Shown here: in pieces, positions 11,724 through 21,743 of the stretch
How the letters are laid out: every line of letters begins with the position of its first letter
Position numbering within the stretch: position 1 is the first letter of the stretch
Origin: Actinomycetota bacterium
GTDB taxonomy: Bacteria > Actinomycetota > JAICYB01
DNA: 38,339 nt
Direction of reading: 5' to 3'
NCBI GenBank assembly: GCA_035536535.1
Contig: DATLNZ010000113.1
Span: 1 to 38,339, forward strand
Notes under the pieces: model-generated
What the model was told of the DNA's origin: nothing
The model's database searches: none
The model's input: only the letters and a program-made list of their open reading frames with translations
Made by a program: the position numbers and the translations under genes

Positions 11724-12554
11724 ATGGAGTACGCGCTCCCCAGTGCGTGGGGCCAGGGCTCTCGCGGCTTCTGGACCAAGCGTAAGAAGTCGGCCACGAG
11801 CCTTCTGGCCGTCATGGCAATGATCGCCGGGATCGCAATCGCGTTCAAGCTGTTCGAGCGCGCCATCCCGAACAACGTGGTTCGCGACGCGTCGGCTTTC
11901 AACTACGAGATCCACGTGAAGCGCACCGCCGCCAACTGCAGTGACACCGTCCCGAACGACTCGGGCTGGTGTGTGGCAAGCGGCGTGGACCCGATCTACC
12001 GCGCCGGCGTCGACAGCTTCCCTGGCGACGAGCGCCTGGAAGAGGTCAGGATCCGCAACACGAACAAGGCTCCGGCCAAGGACGCCAGCTTCGAGATGTG
12101 GGTCAACCAGGCGACGATCGTGATCAACGGCTGTGAGCCGGTGGCGGCGGACGGCACCTGCGGCACCACCCCCGTCATCGCCTCCACGGACCCCCGCTAC
12201 AACAAGTTCCTCGGTTTCTGGCGGCTGTCGGTGGACAAGGAGACGATCGTTGGTGCACTAAGCGACCCGACGGAGTACAACACTCCGCTGTTCGCCGCCG
12301 CGTGCGAGGGCGGATTGAAGGAGCTCACGAGGCAGTCGCCTTGCAAGCTCGGGATGATCCGCTCTTCTGGAACCACCAGCACCACGCCTCCGGGCCACCG
12401 CCTGGACCAGCGCCTGTACGACTTCACGATGACTGAAGAGGACACGGGCCTGGACCAGTCGGAGTACAAGGGCTGGACCGTGACATTCGAGCTCGACTTC
12501 GCGGCCCGCGTGCCGGCCGAGGCCGAGAGCGGCGGACCGGTCTACCAGCGGTAA
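11724..12554 (+). CDS. TasA/camelysin-like secreted protein A
   Basis: This 276-residue exported protein begins with a basic stretch (WTKRKKS) and a hydrophobic segment (about 24-42) ending in AIAFKLFERA, with no lipobox. The mature part contains SFPGDERLEEVRIRN, like the F.PGD.....v.v.N pattern of TasA/CalY fibre proteins and M73 camelysins. It ends with DQSEYKGWTVTFELDF and PVYQR, which recur in the paralogue at 12915. Six Cys are spread through the mature part and could form disulfides. The ATG has a perfect AAGGAGG upstream, implying strong expression. It lies divergent from the membrane-tethered sigma factor. TasA-family proteins form extracellular fibres; that role here is inferred from weak similarity. 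Confidence 0.65.
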   Translation: MEYALPSAWGQGSRGFWTKRKKSATSLLAVMAMIAGIAIAFKLFERAIPNNVVRDASAFNYEIHVKRTAANCSDTVPNDSGWCVASGVDPIYRAGVDSFPGDERLEEVRIRNTNKAPAKDASFEMWVNQATIVINGCEPVAADGTCGTTPVIASTDPRYNKFLGFWRLSVDKETIVGALSDPTEYNTPLFAAACEGGLKELTRQSPCKLGMIRSSGTTSTTPPGHRLDQRLYDFTMTEEDTGLDQSEYKGWTVTFELDFAARVPAEAESGGPVYQR

Positions 12555-12731: not shown

Positions 12732-12914
12732 GCTGCGGTCCAGGGTCCTGACTCTCGATGCGTCTGCCCAGGTCAAGTGCGCCGGAGCCGGGCGTCCGAA
12801 AAAACTTTGGGGGCCGGGAAGGAATCTGGGGCAGATGACCGAATACATTGATCGAACACACCACCCGCCCGGTGAAGTGCTCATACTGGTTGCGCTCACA
12901 GAAGGGTGGTTCGG

Positions 12915-13685
12915 GTGCGCTCACACGCCGAATACCGCCGGCCACGGCGGCTAAGCAGCAAGCTTCGGCTCGTCGGATCGATCCTGCAGGTCACCGCCAT
13001 TGCCGCGGCGACCTTCATCCTGCTCCCCCTGGTTGTCCAGGCCGTTCCCGGGAGCAACCCGATCTTCGTCGAGCCGGGTGGGACCAGGAAGTTCCAGTGC
13101 GAGTTCACCGGCCAGGAAGCCTTCCCGGGCGACACCGTCTTCTGCAAGCTGCGGGTCGGCAACGGCGGCGACATCGATGCCTCCTACTACATGTACGCCG
13201 ACGAGACCTCGATTCGCGTTCTTGATGCCAAGGACCTCGAAGTCACCAATACGGACCTGAAGCAGAGGTTCATCAGCCTGTGGTTCTTCCACATGTTCAC
13301 CCGCCCGGTGATCACCCGCTCCACCCCCGAGGAGCGGGACGTGACGTATGACGCGCAGTACGCGGAGATCTGCCCGCAGAAGCTGCTGCAGTCGTACGAC
13401 GGGGGGCCCAACCCCTCGAACATGAGCTGGGACCGGATGTGCCCAATGGGCACCATCCGGGGGATCAGCTCGCCGCGCCGGTACACCGAGCTCAGCGAGC
13501 CGGCGTACGAGCGCCAGTACCTGCTTGCGATGACCGAGCGCGACGACGGAACCGACCAGTCCGTGTTCAAGGGCTGGGGCCTGGAGTTCGATCTGATCGT
13601 CCGCACCAAGGTCCCTGGGGACGACACTTGTCCGACCACCAGGGTCAACGGAATTTGCGGGCTGCCGGTCTACCAGCGCCCGTAG
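12915..13685 (+). CDS. TasA/camelysin-like secreted protein B
   Basis: This ~256-residue exported paralogue of the protein at 11724 has an Arg-rich start and a hydrophobic segment ending LPLVVQA, which looks signal-peptidase cleavable. The mature part has AFPGDTVFCKLRVGNGG, matching the SFPGD...RIRN motif of protein A. Its C-terminus has MTERDDGTDQS, FKGW and PVYQRP, also shared with A. GTG 12915 is chosen because AAGGG (12902-12906) lies 8 nt upstream; the in-frame GTG 12906 would overlap that site. Strong terminators on both sides make it a separate transcription unit. Two diverged paralogues suggest major and minor subunits of one structure (inference). Confidence 0.62.
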   Translation: MRSHAEYRRPRRLSSKLRLVGSILQVTAIAAATFILLPLVVQAVPGSNPIFVEPGGTRKFQCEFTGQEAFPGDTVFCKLRVGNGGDIDASYYMYADETSIRVLDAKDLEVTNTDLKQRFISLWFFHMFTRPVITRSTPEERDVTYDAQYAEICPQKLLQSYDGGPNPSNMSWDRMCPMGTIRGISSPRRYTELSEPAYERQYLLAMTERDDGTDQSVFKGWGLEFDLIVRTKVPGDDTCPTTRVNGICGLPVYQRP

Positions 13686-14151: not shown

Positions 14152-14976
14152 CTGGCTGCGCGGCGGGCCGACGACCTCCTGCGTTCCACCCGGTCCTGGA
14201 CGCGGAACCGCGTCGGGGCCTTCATCGGGACAACCCTCGTTCTGCTCGCGGTCGGTTCGGTCCTGCTGGCCTCTCGCGACCTGTTGGCCCTGCAGGCGCG
14301 CCAGGCCGGGACGCTGCTGCGCCTGGCCGATGTAGGCCACGACGTCATCACCCGCGATTCGCAGCTGGCTCGGATCCAGGTTGGAAAGGACACCAGGTCG
14401 GGCAGGCAGCGGCGGGCATCGTCTCCGCTCCTGCGCGTGAAGGTCCCCCGGCCGGCCAGGGTCCCCGGGGAGACGGCCGCGGCGCTGGGGGTGTTCACCC
14501 TTGCAGCCGCCGCAGCGATGGCGCGCTCCAGACAGCTGCCGGCGCCCCTGAAGGGGACGGTCCTGGCGGTTCTGGGAATTGCATTCGTCTCCGCCGCCTA
14601 CTCTGCCTGGTGGTCTCCGCTCCCGCCCCTGGACGTCGCCCACGTGATGGTCGACTGGAGGACGTCCGCGCTCGTGCCGATGGTCGCGCTGTCCCTGCTG
14701 TACGCGTACGACCTTTACCCGCTGCCGGGCAACTTCGCGCTGAAGACGGCATGGCTCGCCCTGGCACTGGGGGTGACCGCCGTGTTCTCAACGGTCAGGC
14801 TGGCGTTGTTGGCGGCCGGATACGCCAGGTACGGGGCGGTGTCCCTTCTGGCGCTGCACCAGGTGGCGGGTACCTTCTGGGACCTGCTGCCCGGGCTGGC
14901 ACTGCTGTCGGCCGCGCACGCAAGCGTCGCGTGGTCGGGAAGGTTCAGCATCTTGGGCCGCGGCAGGGCGACGTGA
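14152..14976 (+). CDS. Exosortase-like membrane protein without visible catalytic Cys; non-AUG start
   Basis: The frame is open from just after the TAG at 14140-14142 and looks coding from there: a soluble start (LAARRADDLLRSTRSW) and a first helix (about 24-43) lie before the first canonical start, TTG 14284. GAGGAG at 14134-14139 points to the in-frame ACG 14149 or CTG 14152. From CTG the product is 274 residues with about seven helices. The C-terminal half, from LLYAYDLYPLPG to STVRLALL and LALHQVAGTFWDLLPG, recalls the exosortase/archaeosortase core, with an Arg at about 216 and a His at about 236. The expected Cys is absent; that region reads DWRTSALVP. If related, it is probably not an active transpeptidase. 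The family call is tentative; membrane topology is clear. Confidence 0.55.
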   Translation: MAARRADDLLRSTRSWTRNRVGAFIGTTLVLLAVGSVLLASRDLLALQARQAGTLLRLADVGHDVITRDSQLARIQVGKDTRSGRQRRASSPLLRVKVPRPARVPGETAAALGVFTLAAAAAMARSRQLPAPLKGTVLAVLGIAFVSAAYSAWWSPLPPLDVAHVMVDWRTSALVPMVALSLLYAYDLYPLPGNFALKTAWLALALGVTAVFSTVRLALLAAGYARYGAVSLLALHQVAGTFWDLLPGLALLSAAHASVAWSGRFSILGRGRAT

Positions 14977-15016: not shown

Positions 15017-18000
15017 GTGAGGGGGTGGCTGATCTGGGGGCTTCGGGCCGTCCTGATCCTGGATGTCGCATGGCTTGCCGCCGTGTACGGCAGGTACCTC
15101 CGCCTCAACCGTGCTGCGCAGTTCCGTCCCCGCCCCTCCACGGCGCAGGGCCTTGCCGGCACCTTCACCCCCTCGGTGTCGCTGCTCGTTGCGGCGCCCA
15201 GGGGAGTGGTGGGGCCGTGGCCGGGCCGACTGGAGTACCCGCAACTCGAGATAGTCGTTTCGGCGCCCGAGGGCGTGGAGGTCCGGGGGGCGCCGCCGGG
15301 GGCGGCCGTGGTCAGAGCCCGGTCCGCCAGCCGATCCTCGCTGCTGGTCGCGGCGTCCCAGGTGGCTACGGGCGAGATCCTTGTCGTCCTTCCGCCTTCG
15401 TTCGCGTGCGCCCGGGGATTCGTGAAGCGGCTGGTGGCGCCGTTTGTCGATCCCTGGGTGGGAGCTACCGTGGCGAGGACGGCGGCGGGGCGCCGGGGAG
15501 GAGGGCTTCTGTCGGCCGCCGATGACGTCGACCGGCTGGCGCTGGCTGCGGCACAGGTTGGAGGCCACGTCATCGGCGGTCCCGTCGTAGCCGACTTCGA
15601 GCCGTTCGCGGTCAGATCGCGTCTGATACCCGAGGTCGGGGGATGGGATCTGGCGCAGGACGTCCCAGGACTGGACCTCGTTCTGCGCGTGTACGCGCGG
15701 GGGTTCCTGGTCGCGTATGTCGAGCAGGCCGTGGCCCTGGCCTCCCCGGCCACCTGGCACGCCCTTTCAACTCGGACCCGGGCGCGGGTTGCCGGGCGGC
15801 GGCGGGCGTGGCGTGTGCTGCGCAAGCCTCTGCGCAAGGGCAAGGTCCTCGAGGGTCCGGAGAAGACGGACATCCGCTGGCTCACCCGCGGAGCGACGGC
15901 GCCCTTTTGGTTGCTGGCGGGGTGGATCGGGACGGGGGTGCTGAGGCTGGCCGACACCTCGTGGGCTCCCGAGGCGCTGTCCGGGCTGCTCTTGCTGATG
16001 ACGCTGGCGACGCCGGTCCTGCTCGTGCCATTCGTGGCGTACACGACCGGCTCCCTGCAGTGGGGGCGCTGGCGCATGCTCGCTTTGACCCCGTGGCTGC
16101 CCTTCCTCGCGCTGGGTGCGATGTGGACCGGCTCCGGGGCGTCGCTGTCGCTGTTGCTGCCGGCAGGCGGCAGGAGACGCGCGTCCAGGGCGCGGCCGGA
16201 GGCCGTCGTGCGCGTGGATCGTCCCGCGCAGGCCGCTGCGGTCAAGCAGCCGGCTCCCGTGGCCGCTGCCACTGCTGCCACTGCTGCCGGCGCTGCCGCC
16301 GTCGCCGAGCCGCCCGCGCCCCCGCGGGTCCGTCCCAGGCCGCCGGTGGCGCCCACAGCCGAGCCGGAAGAGCCGGAGACCGACATCGAGACGCAAGTGC
16401 CCGGGCCCTCGAAGCGACTCAGCCCCGAGCCGGAGGAGCTGGAGCCCGAGGAGGTCGAGGAACTGGAGGATCTCGGTCCCGCCGAAGAGCCGGACATCGA
16501 AGAGCCGGACATCGAGGAGGTCGAGGAACTGGAGGATCTCGGTCCCGAGATAGAAGAGCCGGACACAGAAGAGATCGAAGAGATCGAGGAGCCCAAGCGC
16601 CTGGAGCCGATTGCGATCAAAGCCCCGGACATCGAAGAGCCGGAGGAGCTCGAGCCGGTTCCGGCCGAGGACCTGGATGTCGACGGGGGCGAGGTGATTT
16701 CCGAGCCCGCTGAGGAGATGGTCGCTGCCGGTTCCGGGGTACCCGAGGTCACGGAACCAGCGACGTGGGCGCCCGTCACCGAAGAGGAAGACCAGGACGA
16801 GGAGTTCGATCCTGCCGATGTCACTGCGGGTTCCCCCCGCTGGGCCGCGCGCGACGATCCGGACGACCTGGAGTCGCTCGGGGAAGTGGAAGCTGCCGCA
16901 CCTGGAGCTGTTGGCCCGGCCGGTGGATTGCCTCCTGTGGCGGAAGACGCGCAGGCGACGGACGAGCAGGACACGGACGAGGAGGGAGGCCAGCCGGAGT
17001 GGCTCGCTGATCTACAGGACGTGGAGTGGGTCCAGGAGTGGCCCGACGAAGACAGAGGCGAGGAGGACGCTGCAGATGTGCAGGTAACGGAGGCCGCGGC
17101 CGGTCCCGCAGCGGAAGCGGCGTCCGCCCTTCCAGACGACTCGCCCTCCGAGGTGTGGTGGACCGCGCCGGAGCAAGCCCAGGCTGACGACGTGGTGACG
17201 CAGCCCCCGGCCGTGGTCGAGGACCTTGCCGGGGAGGACCCGGAGCCGGGGGCCGAGGATGCGAGCGACTGGTGGACCCGGCCGCTGCCCGCTTGGGACT
17301 CCGAGCCTGCCGACGATCTCGAGGAGCCCCGGGAGACCGGCGACGAGCAGCGGGAACGGCAGGACACCGACCAGGACGAGTCGGCAGTGCACGAGCGGGA
17401 GGATCCAGACCCCTTCTGGGCATCCGACGAGTCGGAGGGGACACGGCCCGCGGGAGAAGGGCCCGGACATGGGCCCGAGAAAGAGGTCCCTGTTGCTGCG
17501 TCCGCGCCGGCGGGGACGGAGACCGGGGAGGGGGAAGCTGAGGTCGAAGTCGAAGACGCGGTCGCCAGCGAAGACGAGGTCGACGGCGAAGACGAGGTTC
17601 CGGATGAAGTTTCAGAGGCTGAGGCTCAGCCCCCGGTCTCCAAAAAGCGCAGGTTCGGGTGGTTCGGCCGCGGGCGCCGGCGAGACCGACAGCAGCCGGC
17701 CGCGACCGAAGTCCCGTCCGCCCCGGAAGACATCGCGGTGGTTGTGGATGAAGACGTCCCGATGGCCCCCGATGAAGACGCGGCGCGGCCGGCGGCCTCC
17801 GCGGAGGAGCCCTTTGAGGATGGGCCCCCACTGCTGGACGACTCCGAGTGGGAATTCCTGTCCGAAGAAGACGACGTTTTCGCCGAGGACCCAGGCCTCC
17901 CTGCTGAGGCTGAGGACGACGAGCCGCAGGACGACGAGCCGCAGGAGGATGAGGAGCTGGAGAGCGCGGAACCTTCCGAGCCGGACGGCGGGGAGCGCGA

Positions 18001-18145
18001 GAAAGCGGAGCGGTCCCGGGAGCGGCAGGAACCTTCGGGTCGGTCCGACGAGCGCAGTCCCGCGGAGCCGACCGGGCGGAAAAAAGAGCGTCGGGGTAGG
18101 CGCGGCGCGGCCCTGGACTTCGACCGGATATGGGAGCGCCGGTGA
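15017..18145 (+). CDS. Degenerate membrane glycosyltransferase-like protein with giant acidic tail
   Basis: This 1042-residue protein has an N-terminal helix (about 4-24), a GT2-like domain (about 50-275) and three to four further helices (about 295-390). The domain keeps the outline of processive GT2 enzymes (YPQLEIVVSA, VGGHVIGG, EVGGWDLAQD). However, the metal-binding DxD position reads LPPS and QxxRW is replaced by TRTRARVAG, so catalysis is doubtful. The remaining ~660 residues are low-complexity, first Ala/Pro then very rich in Glu and Asp, broken by Trp-containing acidic motifs such as WWTRPLPAWD, and predicted cytoplasmic. GTG 15017 has AGGGAG upstream. The stop overlaps the next gene as GTGA. 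The next protein carries a basic tail, suggesting charge-based pairing (inference). Confidence 0.75.
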   Translation: MRGWLIWGLRAVLILDVAWLAAVYGRYLRLNRAAQFRPRPSTAQGLAGTFTPSVSLLVAAPRGVVGPWPGRLEYPQLEIVVSAPEGVEVRGAPPGAAVVRARSASRSSLLVAASQVATGEILVVLPPSFACARGFVKRLVAPFVDPWVGATVARTAAGRRGGGLLSAADDVDRLALAAAQVGGHVIGGPVVADFEPFAVRSRLIPEVGGWDLAQDVPGLDLVLRVYARGFLVAYVEQAVALASPATWHALSTRTRARVAGRRRAWRVLRKPLRKGKVLEGPEKTDIRWLTRGATAPFWLLAGWIGTGVLRLADTSWAPEALSGLLLLMTLATPVLLVPFVAYTTGSLQWGRWRMLALTPWLPFLALGAMWTGSGASLSLLLPAGGRRRASRARPEAVVRVDRPAQAAAVKQPAPVAAATAATAAGAAAVAEPPAPPRVRPRPPVAPTAEPEEPETDIETQVPGPSKRLSPEPEELEPEEVEELEDLGPAEEPDIEEPDIEEVEELEDLGPEIEEPDTEEIEEIEEPKRLEPIAIKAPDIEEPEELEPVPAEDLDVDGGEVISEPAEEMVAAGSGVPEVTEPATWAPVTEEEDQDEEFDPADVTAGSPRWAARDDPDDLESLGEVEAAAPGAVGPAGGLPPVAEDAQATDEQDTDEEGGQPEWLADLQDVEWVQEWPDEDRGEEDAADVQVTEAAAGPAAEAASALPDDSPSEVWWTAPEQAQADDVVTQPPAVVEDLAGEDPEPGAEDASDWWTRPLPAWDSEPADDLEEPRETGDEQRERQDTDQDESAVHEREDPDPFWASDESEGTRPAGEGPGHGPEKEVPVAASAPAGTETGEGEAEVEVEDAVASEDEVDGEDEVPDEVSEAEAQPPVSKKRRFGWFGRGRRRDRQQPAATEVPSAPEDIAVVVDEDVPMAPDEDAARPAASAEEPFEDGPPLLDDSEWEFLSEEDDVFAEDPGLPAEAEDDEPQDDEPQEDEELESAEPSEPDGGEREKAERSRERQEPSGRSDERSPAEPTGRKKERRGRRGAALDFDRIWERR
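16448..16547 (+). repeat. 66-bp-period direct repeat in the acidic tail
   Basis: A 34-bp sequence encoding an EEVEELEDLGP-like stretch occurs identically at 16448-16481 and 16514-16547. The near-perfect DNA identity shows a recent in-frame duplication expanding the acidic tail. Confidence 0.75.
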
Positions 18146-20133
18146 ACGGGTTCTGGGTCATCGCCGCCATCTACGCCGGCCTCTGGATGTTGCTGCTGGC
18201 GCCCGGGGCCTTTCTCATCTTTTCGCGCGAGCGCGCCGTCCCGTTGCCGGAGTCCGATCCGTTGGACGAACGGTGGGTGCGGACGTTGCGCCGGCAGCTG
18301 CTGTCGGCCGCCCCCGAAAGCGCGATACCCGCAGCCGACCTCCGGCTGCGCGAGCGGCCGAGAAAGCCACGGGGCGCTGGAGAGGAGTCCGTCAAGAAGG
18401 CTCTGCGCCTCAAGGGCCGGTGCACCGTCCAGGCGCGGTCGGCGGTGGGCGAGGCATTGGTGGTCGAGGGGCCGCTTCGATGCGAGGCGGGATCCGTGCT
18501 GCTCGCGCCGGTGTGGGTGAGGGGCGACGCGGTCCTGGATGAGGAAGTGGTCGCATCCTCCATGATCGTGGACGGCTCGCTCAGCCTCGGCAAGGGAACC
18601 CGCATCGAAGGGCGCGTAGCCGCGGGTGGTGCCGTCCGGCTGGCGGAGGGAGCCCAAGTGACGGGTCCGGTCTTCTCGAAGCTGGAGGTGGAGCTGAGCG
18701 AGGGATCCCGAGTTGCGGCGGCGCTGGCGCCCGTCGTGTCCGGTGCCCCGGCCCCCGACGCCCCGGAGGTCCTCCCGCCTTCGGAGGCTTCTCCCCTGGA
18801 GCGCCCGCACTGGACGCCTGAACTGGACCGCGCCCTCGAGGAGTCGTGGTCGGCCGACCAGCGGCTGGCACAGATCATCGACTCGGTCCGCGAGGCGACG
18901 GGTGTGCTGCTGCGTGGTGTCCACGTTCTGGAGAGGGCTCGCGAGCTCGGCCTGTTTGCCCGGGGCATCCCGCGCCGCCCCGCCGTGCTGGCGCGCCGCC
19001 CCGCCTGGGTCCTGGAGCCCGAGACGATCCGGGTTGGCGCCGACCTGCGCGTTCCTCCGGGGGTCGTGGTGAGCTACACGCTGGCGCTGGAGGGTTCCCT
19101 GGAGGTCTTCCAGGATGCGGTGCTCGAAGCTCCGGTGAGGTCCGGACGAGGCATCCTGCTGCATGCCCGCAGCGCCGTTTACGGCCAGGCCGTCTCGGAT
19201 GGGCTGATCGTGCTCGAGGAAGGCACAGCGGTCCTCGGCCCCCTGGACTCCAGTACCCACATCCTGTTGTTCTGCGGAGCCCGTGCGGGCGTTCCGGGGT
19301 TCGGCGGGGCCAATGCCCGGGGTGCCATCGGGCTGGAGCCGGGGGCCCGGATCATGGGCGGTGCGGTGGGGGGCCTGGGGGTCCGTGGCGAACCGGCCCG
19401 GCCCGAGGCGGAGCGGCGCAAGACGGTGGATGCGTTGCCGGGGACCGAGGAATTGGCGGCAATGGCCAGGGGCAAGCGCAGGCGGCGGATGAGGGGCGCG
19501 CTGAGACGGAGGAAGAAGCCGTCCAGGCCCCCGATGGTCCCCGCGCAGCAAGCTCCCGCTCCTGAGGATCGGGAGAAGCCGGCTTCGCCCCGGGCCGGTG
19601 AGCCCTCGGCCGTGCGGCTCCGGGGGGTAGCTCGGGAGGCCGGCGCCTCCCCAGAGCCCGATCGGAAGGCCGGTGCCTTCGACAAAGGGCGCAGGCGAGA
19701 AGGGGATGCTCCCGGAAAGCCCCGGCGGCCGGTCGACGCACCCACGAAGACGAAGACGAAGTCGGACGGCGACTTGCGCGTGAAGCCCAAGCCCGAGGCC
19801 GGCGCGCGCGTGAAGTCGAAGTCCGGGGCCAGCGCACGCGTGAAGCCCAAGCCCGAGGCCGGCGCGCGTGTGAAGGCGAAGTCCGAGGAGAGCGCACGCG
19901 TGAAGCCCAAGCCCGAGGCCGGCGCGCGTGTGAAGGCGAAGTCCGGGGCCGGGGGGCGCGTGACGAAGTCCGGGGCAGCCGAGCGGTCCAGCCGGCAGAA
20001 GTCGGGAGCCAAGGAGCAGCCCCCGCCCCGCGGGGCCTCGGCGGCCGGGAAGAAGGCCACGGTCGGGCAGGACCGCGAGTCGCCCCCCTCCACGAGCGGG
20101 GGCGTACGCAAGCGAAGCACGCGCAAGCCCTGA
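18142..20133 (+). CDS. Membrane-anchored bactofilin-like protein with basic tail
   Basis: This 663-residue protein has one N-terminal helix (about 5-26), then two beta-rich regions (about 85-190 and 290-420) of short repeating strands such as LVVEGPLRCEAGSVLLAP and MIVDGSLSLGKGTRIEG. They resemble the beta-helix of bactofilins, polymer-forming cytoskeletal proteins. The last ~240 residues are Lys/Arg-rich low complexity with RVKPKPEAGA-type repeats. GTG 18142 is preferred over ATG 18130: it overlaps the upstream stop as GTGA and has GGGAG about 6 nt upstream. The coupling predicts matched amounts of this basic-tailed protein and its acidic-tailed neighbour. I infer a membrane scaffold organising envelope synthesis. 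The bactofilin call rests on pattern, not alignment. Confidence 0.65.
   Translation: MNGFWVIAAIYAGLWMLLLAPGAFLIFSRERAVPLPESDPLDERWVRTLRRQLLSAAPESAIPAADLRLRERPRKPRGAGEESVKKALRLKGRCTVQARSAVGEALVVEGPLRCEAGSVLLAPVWVRGDAVLDEEVVASSMIVDGSLSLGKGTRIEGRVAAGGAVRLAEGAQVTGPVFSKLEVELSEGSRVAAALAPVVSGAPAPDAPEVLPPSEASPLERPHWTPELDRALEESWSADQRLAQIIDSVREATGVLLRGVHVLERARELGLFARGIPRRPAVLARRPAWVLEPETIRVGADLRVPPGVVVSYTLALEGSLEVFQDAVLEAPVRSGRGILLHARSAVYGQAVSDGLIVLEEGTAVLGPLDSSTHILLFCGARAGVPGFGGANARGAIGLEPGARIMGGAVGGLGVRGEPARPEAERRKTVDALPGTEELAAMARGKRRRRMRGALRRRKKPSRPPMVPAQQAPAPEDREKPASPRAGEPSAVRLRGVAREAGASPEPDRKAGAFDKGRRREGDAPGKPRRPVDAPTKTKTKSDGDLRVKPKPEAGARVKSKSGASARVKPKPEAGARVKAKSEESARVKPKPEAGARVKAKSGAGGRVTKSGAAERSSRQKSGAKEQPPPRGASAAGKKATVGQDRESPPSTSGGVRKRSTRKP
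19777..19965 (+). repeat. 60-bp tandem repeat encoding the basic tail
   Basis: About three copies of a 60-bp unit encode a 20-residue repeat, RVKPKPEAGA followed by RVKSKSGASA or RVKAKSEESA. Copies differ at only a few bases, implying recent expansion in frame. Confidence 0.85.
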
Positions 20134-20273: not shown

Positions 20274-21743
20274 ATGTCAGGGCGCAGAAGCGGCAGGCTC
20301 GAGGTCAGACTGGGTCAGTCGGGTACGCCGACCGTGGCTCCCGTGCCGAAGTCGCGCATCAAGATGATGGCGACCGTTCTCGGCGTGACACTGGCGATCG
20401 CCCCGGGTCCCTGGGCTTTCAAGCGCTTTGAGGCTCCCCGCGCGAACAACGAGACCAAGCCGGCCGGAACCCACGAGCAGATTTCGATTCTTCCAGGACT
20501 CGCCCTGGCCTCACGCAACGGGCAGCCACAGCCTGCGGCATACGTGAACGGCGACAAGGTGGAGCTGGACCTCGGAGAGCTTCGTGGCGGCTCCTCTTCC
20601 ACCTACTCCGACCTTCTGCGCGTGCGCAACGACGGTCAATCTCCGGTCCTGCTGTACGTCGACCCGTCCTCGATCTCCCAGGCACCGATGCACGCTTCGG
20701 TTTCGGGTGAAGAAGCACCGGGAGCCTTTTGGGTGAAGCCTCAGGAATCCAAGCCAGTGGACCTGTCTCTCGTCGCGGATCTGGCGGCGCAGCCGGGCGA
20801 TCTCGCCGGAGACCTCGCAATCCGGTCCGCGTCCGGAATGACCGCGGAGAAGGTTCCGGCGCGCATGTCCGTTGCCGCTCCCACTCGCGAGTCGGTTCTG
20901 TCGGCCCTGCTGGGCGCGGAGAAAAACCCGGAGTCGGGGCTGGGCAAGCTGGGCGAGGTCGCAGCCGGACTGGAAGCTCCCGACTTCGTGGTCGAGGGCG
21001 TCTGGGACGGGGGGGCCTACCCCAGCGACATCACCTTCACGTGGCGCCCGCTCGGCCCCCTGACCAACGTGCGCGGAACTCTCGACGATGGGCCGGTCGG
21101 ACAGACCGCGATGGTGACCGACGAGGGCCAGCACGTCCTTCGGCTTCAGGGCCTGATCCTGGGGGCGGTGCCGTTCACCCGCGAGATTTCCTTCAGCCTC
21201 GACAAGAACGCTCCGGTGGCGTTGCAGCTGTCTCCGCCGGTCATGCTCGGCAAGCCCGCCACGTTCACGGCGAGCGTCAACGACCTCAGCACCGTCGCCG
21301 GCGTGGAGTTCGTGGTGCTCGAGAAGGTCAAGCCGGCCAGAAAGAAGCAGCCGTCGAAGGTCTCACCCGTCCGACAGGCGGTCTCGGAAGAGGCTGCGAA
21401 GGCACCGGAGGCCGAGACTCCCGAAGGCGCTCCGAAGGTGCGTGCCAGGCAGTCTCTCAGTGAGGCGAGGGCCGAACTGGCCGGGGCGGCTCCCGTGGAG
21501 GCGCCCAGGCGACAGTCCTCGAAGCCGCAGTCTGCGCCGGAGCCGGTCCGGCTGGCCGCCACACAGGACTCCAACTCCGGGTTGTGGGTGGCCACGACGG
21601 AGCTCAAGCCCGGCAAGTACCTGGTCCACGTCGAGGCGATCGATTCCCTGGGCCACAAGGTCGTCGGCGAGCCTCAGCTGATCCAGGTCGTCGGGACTCC
21701 GGAGGAGATCCCCGACGACATGCCGGAGGTTCCGCAGGCGTAG
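20274..21743 (+). CDS. Secreted surface protein with Ig-like regions
   Basis: This 489-residue exported protein has a basic N-terminus (KSRIK) and a hydrophobic segment (about 32-48) ending WAFKRFEAPRANN. That closely resembles IAFKLFERAIPNN in the TasA-like protein at 11724. A beta-sandwich-like region follows (about 75-205, with ELDLGELRGG and DLLRVRNDGQSPVLLYVD), then Ig-like segments and a Lys/Ala/Glu-rich disordered insertion (about 350-430) before a final beta region. No lipobox or LPXTG is seen. GGGGAG precedes the ATG. I infer a surface or fibre-associated protein exported like the TasA-like protein; the family is not recognised. Confidence 0.65.
   Translation: MSGRRSGRLEVRLGQSGTPTVAPVPKSRIKMMATVLGVTLAIAPGPWAFKRFEAPRANNETKPAGTHEQISILPGLALASRNGQPQPAAYVNGDKVELDLGELRGGSSSTYSDLLRVRNDGQSPVLLYVDPSSISQAPMHASVSGEEAPGAFWVKPQESKPVDLSLVADLAAQPGDLAGDLAIRSASGMTAEKVPARMSVAAPTRESVLSALLGAEKNPESGLGKLGEVAAGLEAPDFVVEGVWDGGAYPSDITFTWRPLGPLTNVRGTLDDGPVGQTAMVTDEGQHVLRLQGLILGAVPFTREISFSLDKNAPVALQLSPPVMLGKPATFTASVNDLSTVAGVEFVVLEKVKPARKKQPSKVSPVRQAVSEEAAKAPEAETPEGAPKVRARQSLSEARAELAGAAPVEAPRRQSSKPQSAPEPVRLAATQDSNSGLWVATTELKPGKYLVHVEAIDSLGHKVVGEPQLIQVVGTPEEIPDDMPEVPQA

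Follow-up and report, generated by a model that had tools for sequence, protein, structure and literature searches.

A putative pseudo-glycosyltransferase with an acidic tail encoded beside a membrane-anchored bactofilin-like protein with a basic tail in an Actinomycetota genome

The two adjacent genes described here, coding for proteins A and B, lie on a 38,339-nucleotide contig (DATLNZ010000113.1, assembly GCA_035536535.1; this whole stretch is referred to as the window) of a metagenome-assembled genome (MAG) of an uncultured Actinomycetota bacterium. The most interesting feature of the pair is that the conserved GT2 protein of a GT2–bactofilin-like operon has very probably been turned into a tailed pseudoenzyme. 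In the explanation that we prefer, and to which we give a probability of roughly 0.6, the pair descends from an envelope operon, A is a pseudoenzyme docked on a scaffold of B, and the oppositely charged tails of the two proteins are recent disordered additions that probably tune their contact.

Results

The gene pair

The features of the pair and of the gene preceding it are collected in Table 1. The open reading frame list gave B an ATG start, from which the protein has 667 residues and the genes overlap by 16 nt. The GTG start, giving 663 residues and a GTGA overlap, is preferred because it aligns with the start of the homologue in G001, the closest relative with B, and the GTGA overlap read in the first-pass annotation was thus borne out. 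That annotation had also described both proteins as membrane-anchored, A ending in about 660 Glu/Asp-rich and B in about 240 Lys/Arg-rich residues, and our analysis agrees with it on each of these points. Frame-specific G+C content is kept through both tails (GC3 0.78–0.87 vs GC2 0.50–0.65), and both reading frames, tails included, are genuine coding sequence.

Table 1 Features of the A/B gene pair and of the preceding gene (positions in the window)
Feature	Positions	Strand	Description
Exosortase/archaeosortase-like membrane protein	14284–14976	+	230 aa, start uncertain; no cysteine; first gene of the proposed ancestral unit
Protein A	15017–18145	+	Degenerate GT2 core and acidic tail; 1042 aa; GTG start
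A core	15017–16174	+	aa 1–386; TM1, GT-A-like domain, TM2, TM3, interface helix; NodC/PgaC-type GT2 by descent
Donor-binding Asp position (IxDxxSTD)	15266–15268	+	Pro84 (SAPEG) in A; alignment
DAD metal-binding motif position	15389–15400	+	LPPS in A, aa 125–128; alignment
Catalytic ED position (LAEDTD)	15665–15670	+	Pro217-Gly218 (DVPGLD) in A; alignment
QxxRW position (QLRRW)	15773–15787	+	RTRAR in A, aa 253–257; alignment
A acidic tail	16175–18142	+	aa 387–1042; 656 aa, net −152, 14 Trp, 83 Pro
Imperfect direct repeats in A, 66-bp spacing	~16334–16691	+	Only stretch of A with 66-bp spacing
Protein B	18142–20133	+	TM, double bactofilin-like beta-helix and basic tail; GTG start inferred at 18142
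Protein B, alternative start	18130–20133	+	ATG 18130, also open; 667 aa
B beta-helix 1	18400–18744	+	aa 91–205, numbering from 18130; AF2 pLDDT ~95; site of the sub-cutoff Pfam Bactofilin match and of the BacA match
B helical linker between beta-helices	18778–18963	+	aa 217–278; AF2 model
B beta-helix 2	19003–19389	+	aa 292–420; AF2 model
B basic tail	19417–20130	+	From aa 430; 238 aa, net +41
30/60-bp tandem repeats in B tail	19722–19963	+	Unit RVKPKPEAGARVKAKSxxxA

Ancestry and active site of A

A alone did not match any Pfam or NCBIfam model. When its core was compared with an HMM built from seven intact GT2s lying directly upstream of distant B homologues, an E value of 2.3e-17 was obtained, while none of 1000 shuffled sequences was significant, and hhalign against the operon GT2s gave 98 %. 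The best Foldseek matches were to BcsA (E 1.7e-5), on an AF2 model of low confidence (pLDDT 56) that served only as support. These comparisons show a homologous GT-A plus transmembrane fold, i.e. for a NodC/PgaC-type GT2 by descent.

All four GT2 catalytic motifs (D, DxD, ED and QxxRW) are replaced in A, whereas the GT2 of every operon relative retains them. Work on NodC has shown its DD and QxxRW motifs to be essential and mutants in them to be inactive (PMC4132801). With the loss of the donor Asp and of the DxD, ED and QxxRW motifs, A is very probably a pseudo-glycosyltransferase, a state read from one MAG sequence, A occurring in one genome only. The earlier label "GT2-like" was right as to descent, although it lacked a Pfam match and the loss of the active site had been overlooked. 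If A were instead a working glycosyltransferase whose active site has diverged and whose tails regulate or localise synthesis, the conservation of fold, membrane layout and operon position would be accounted for, but the replacing residues are non-equivalent and the corresponding NodC mutants are inactive, which makes this explanation highly improbable.

Membrane topology

The hydrophobic segments of A (aa 4–22, ~286–304, 324–342 and 352–370) fit the plan of NodC, for which three transmembrane segments, a cytoplasmic interface helix and an inside C-terminus have been mapped (PMC4132801). The three C-terminal hydrophobic segments had at first hinted at a tail outside the cell; the NodC map, in which the third corresponds to the interface helix, favours the inside. 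Because of this match the tail of A is probably cytoplasmic. B has a single N-terminal transmembrane segment followed by positive residues and then by the bactofilin-like fold. By homology to the NodC C-terminus and by this layout of B, both tails are probably cytoplasmic, in line with what had been proposed earlier.

Predicted bactofilin-like fold of B

The AF2 model of B, which is a confident one (pLDDT 85), consists of an N-terminal transmembrane helix, a beta-solenoid, a helical linker and a second beta-solenoid. The score against the Pfam Bactofilin family PF04519 was 16.2 bits, below the gathering cutoff of 27.9, and a weak match to the same family was also seen in the G001 homologue. 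Superposed on BacA (2n3d), the model reached a TMt of 0.73, normalised to the length of BacA, on 106 columns with an rmsd of 2.8, the Foldseek E value of 3.1 being not significant. We describe B as bactofilin-like and do not call it a bactofilin. This aspect had been missed in the first-pass annotation.

A conserved operon

A search of the genome contigs with the window's B as a single protein gave no match, whereas a B profile found three Actinomycetota MAG loci. One-domain partial matches to B (f7 and similar) were left out. The full-length distant homologues all lie directly behind an intact GT2 gene (6/6), and an exosortase-like gene precedes the GT2 in each of the five loci where the contig reaches that far. 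These operons come from G126 (two copies), G148, G333, G276 and G315, all from a single further class of Actinomycetota. Five loci (L022, L023, L024, L053, L054) show the order exosortase-like–GT2–B–PTPS, and L055 shows GT2–B–PTPS. Pfam confirmed the PTPS_related domain for L022 and L023, and the gene was assigned in the other loci by position and sequence. In the window the exosortase-like gene is followed by A and then B, and the PTPS gene is absent.

The window's exosortase-like protein matched an HMM of the relatives' operon proteins with an E value of 2e-22 (best of 1000 shuffles, 0.19). Against TIGR04178 it scored 17.0 bits, the cutoff being 23; among the relatives, L022 (25.8) and L024 (23.1) pass and L023 and L054 fail. 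The copies in the window, L023 and L024 have no Cys at all and the others have none in common, so that the catalytic Cys of the exosortase Cys-Arg-His triad appears to be absent as a conserved residue from these proteins.

Judged from gene order and homology, the exosortase-like gene, GT2 and B form an ancient operon, in which A/B is a genuine conserved unit. No published description of a GT2–bactofilin-like operon was found in the literature searched. Its existence hints at joint action, as one unit, of membrane polysaccharide synthases with scaffolds of the bactofilin type in deep Actinomycetota.

Two of the operon GT2s (L053:991-2700 and L054:7398-9041) contain an acidic linker and, at the C-terminus, a TPR-like domain, with weak Pfam TPR matches in G148. 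Another possible GT2–bactofilin-like pair is present in G030 (L032:227-2391), where the gene for an intact GT2 precedes one for a short, single-domain form of B (296 aa).

Charge and repeats of the tails

Both tails are strongly charged and fall on the disordered side of the charge-hydropathy plot. As a background, charge was computed for 127 called genes (~245 kb) in a 20-contig sample of the same genome, the window included. The lowest charge of a 150-aa stretch in this sample was −31, while A, which was not among the genes passing the gene filter and was computed separately, reaches −57. The +29 of B is the most basic 150-aa stretch in the sample. The two tail charges do not nearly cancel (−152 and +41), and the tail of A also contains basic patches, at aa ~876–892 and in its last ~40 residues.

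Expansion of both tails by in-frame DNA repeats had been proposed. Repeats with 66-bp spacing in A and units of 30/60 bp in B are indeed present, but they extend over only part of each tail, ~120 residues of A and ~80 residues of B, and repeat growth thus accounts for the tails only in part. The tails could also be, for the most part, low-complexity sequence gained without adaptive value in a genome of high G+C content, arising by slippage at GAG/GAC- and AAG-rich codons and tolerated as disordered, with the opposite charges a coincidence. The repeats of 15-, 30-, 60- and 66-bp periods and the absence or shortness of the tails in relatives are consistent with such growth. We nevertheless regard it as rather unlikely, as most of the A tail (~540 aa) lacks repeats but stays acidic throughout and has Trp motifs that recur, the charge of A is unmatched in the 127-gene sample, and coding-type composition is kept in the tails.

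Comparison of the tails across relatives

The basic tail is absent in all six distant full-length copies of B. The GT2 tails of the distant copies are 29–168 aa long and acidic, mixed or basic, two of them having the TPR-like domain, and in G333 an acidic insert lies inside B itself. The within-class comparison comprised three genomes, the source genome, G001 and G002. B of G001 is 54 % identical to that of the window, and its tail has 73 aa with a net charge of +5. A genome-wide search of the G001 assembly (97 % complete) revealed neither A nor the exosortase-like protein. The absence of A in G001 rests on this search, since the contig starts ~180 nt upstream of B. The G001 homologue suggests that B can work alone, as it is kept there with no detectable A. 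In G002 none of the exosortase-like gene, A and B was found.

Two candidates in G001 were rejected. L081, the best other GT2-like match, has an intact GT2 whose neighbouring genes are unrelated and was not accepted as an orthologue of A, and a short minus-strand ORF upstream of B, read as the start of a GNAT gene, gained no Pfam confirmation.

The search for the pair in related genomes thus showed that the pair is old and conserved, whereas the charged tails occur in one genome only. With the B tail absent and the GT2 tails short or ordinary in the distant relatives, and the B tail short in G001, the opposed tails are an elaboration, confined to a single genome, of a pair that is old. No homologue keeping one tail while losing the other, an observation named beforehand as contrary to the pairing, was found among the relatives examined, nor was co-variation of the tails seen, a single genome carrying both.

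The earlier description of A and B as a coevolving polyelectrolyte pair was not supported by the six distant pairs without a B tail, their ordinary GT2 tails and the acidic insert in B of G333. As a rival explanation it would make the main function of the pair a binding or condensation of co-evolved tails beneath the membrane, comparable to that of prothymosin-alpha with histone H1. Extreme opposite charge in translationally coupled neighbours and the probable cytoplasmic location of both tails are in its favour, and the short, near-neutral B tail in G001, which has no acidic partner, would fit linked gain or loss as a single comparison. However, all distant homologous pairs are conserved without such tails, and the imbalance of charge, the basic patches of A and the G333 insert likewise speak against it; we consider it unlikely.

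Neighbouring genes

Upstream of the operon the window encodes two paralogous secreted proteins (11724-12554 and 12906-13685; E 2e-13) with FPGD…N and DQS-x-F-KGW motifs, both ending in PVYQR. This family has seven matches in the source genome and five in G001, had no match in Pfam or NCBIfam, and by eye looks TasA/camelysin-like. Directly after B (20274-21743) lies a gene for a 489-aa exported-looking protein, which is conserved together with B in G001 (46 %) and was found neither in G002 nor beside the distant operons.

Discussion

In the explanation favoured here, the ancestor would have been an envelope operon coding for an exosortase-like membrane protein, a processive-type GT2, a double bactofilin-like beta-helix anchored in the membrane and, in most cases, a PTPS-related membrane protein. 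Homology, motif loss and synteny show that all catalytic motifs of the GT2 disappeared in this lineage, and the resulting pseudoenzyme would have kept its place in the complex. From bactofilin biology and the conserved adjacency of the genes, it is most likely that B builds a submembrane scaffold, to which A would dock as a membrane platform. The acidic and basic tails would be recent disordered additions, grown partly by DNA slippage, whose probable role is to reinforce or adjust the contact of A with B, or to attract further charged partners. A charge-mediated contact between the tails is plausible, and the basic patches of A could also fold back on its own acidic parts. The complex may serve the surface assembly or export of the multi-copy secreted proteins encoded just upstream, their proximity hinting that they may be its cargo.

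It is a doubtful further step to assume that in A the processive-type GT2 became a non-catalytic membrane scaffold, with its 650-residue acidic tail bound to the basic tail of the neighbouring membrane bactofilin-like polymer, and that the resulting membrane-tethered polyelectrolyte assembly organises how the envelope or surface proteins are put together. The pseudoenzyme offshoot with its opposed tails would provide a natural test of bacterial polyelectrolyte pairing at the membrane.

Comparison with known systems

Among GT2 synthases, A resembles NodC and PgaC-IcaA (TIGR04242, TIGR03937) in its N-terminal transmembrane segment, GT-A domain, two further transmembrane segments, interface helix and, by homology, cytoplasmic C-terminus; it differs from them in having no catalytic motif and in its long acidic tail. 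The intact operon GT2s of the relatives score far below the equivalog cutoffs.

The XrtG system (exosortase G, TIGR03110, with a GT2, TIGR03111) is associated with a PTPS-related membrane protein. The operon is like it in having an exosortase-like membrane gene beside a GT2 and, in the relatives, a PTPS-related (PF10131) gene downstream. Unlike in XrtG, neither model cutoff is approached (10.8 of 102.75; 33–75 of 364), the exosortase-like protein has no conserved Cys, a bactofilin-like gene is inserted, and the window has no PTPS gene.

Prothymosin-alpha and linker histone H1 form a disordered complex of an acidic and a basic chain (PMC7661507). A and B likewise have disordered chains of opposite charge, but both are membrane-anchored and their charges are unbalanced.

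From bactofilins (PF04519), B differs in its two beta-helices with a helical linker, its sub-cutoff Pfam score and its N-terminal transmembrane anchor, which is present in about 3 % of bactofilins (PMC12448750). In BacP of Myxococcus xanthus a long C-terminal tail with a KKKVVVKK motif binds the client PadC (PMC12448750), which sets a precedent for clients held by bactofilin tails, and B shares with bactofilins, including BacP, a right-handed beta-helix as predicted from its model, membrane association and a disordered C-terminal tail with basic stretches.
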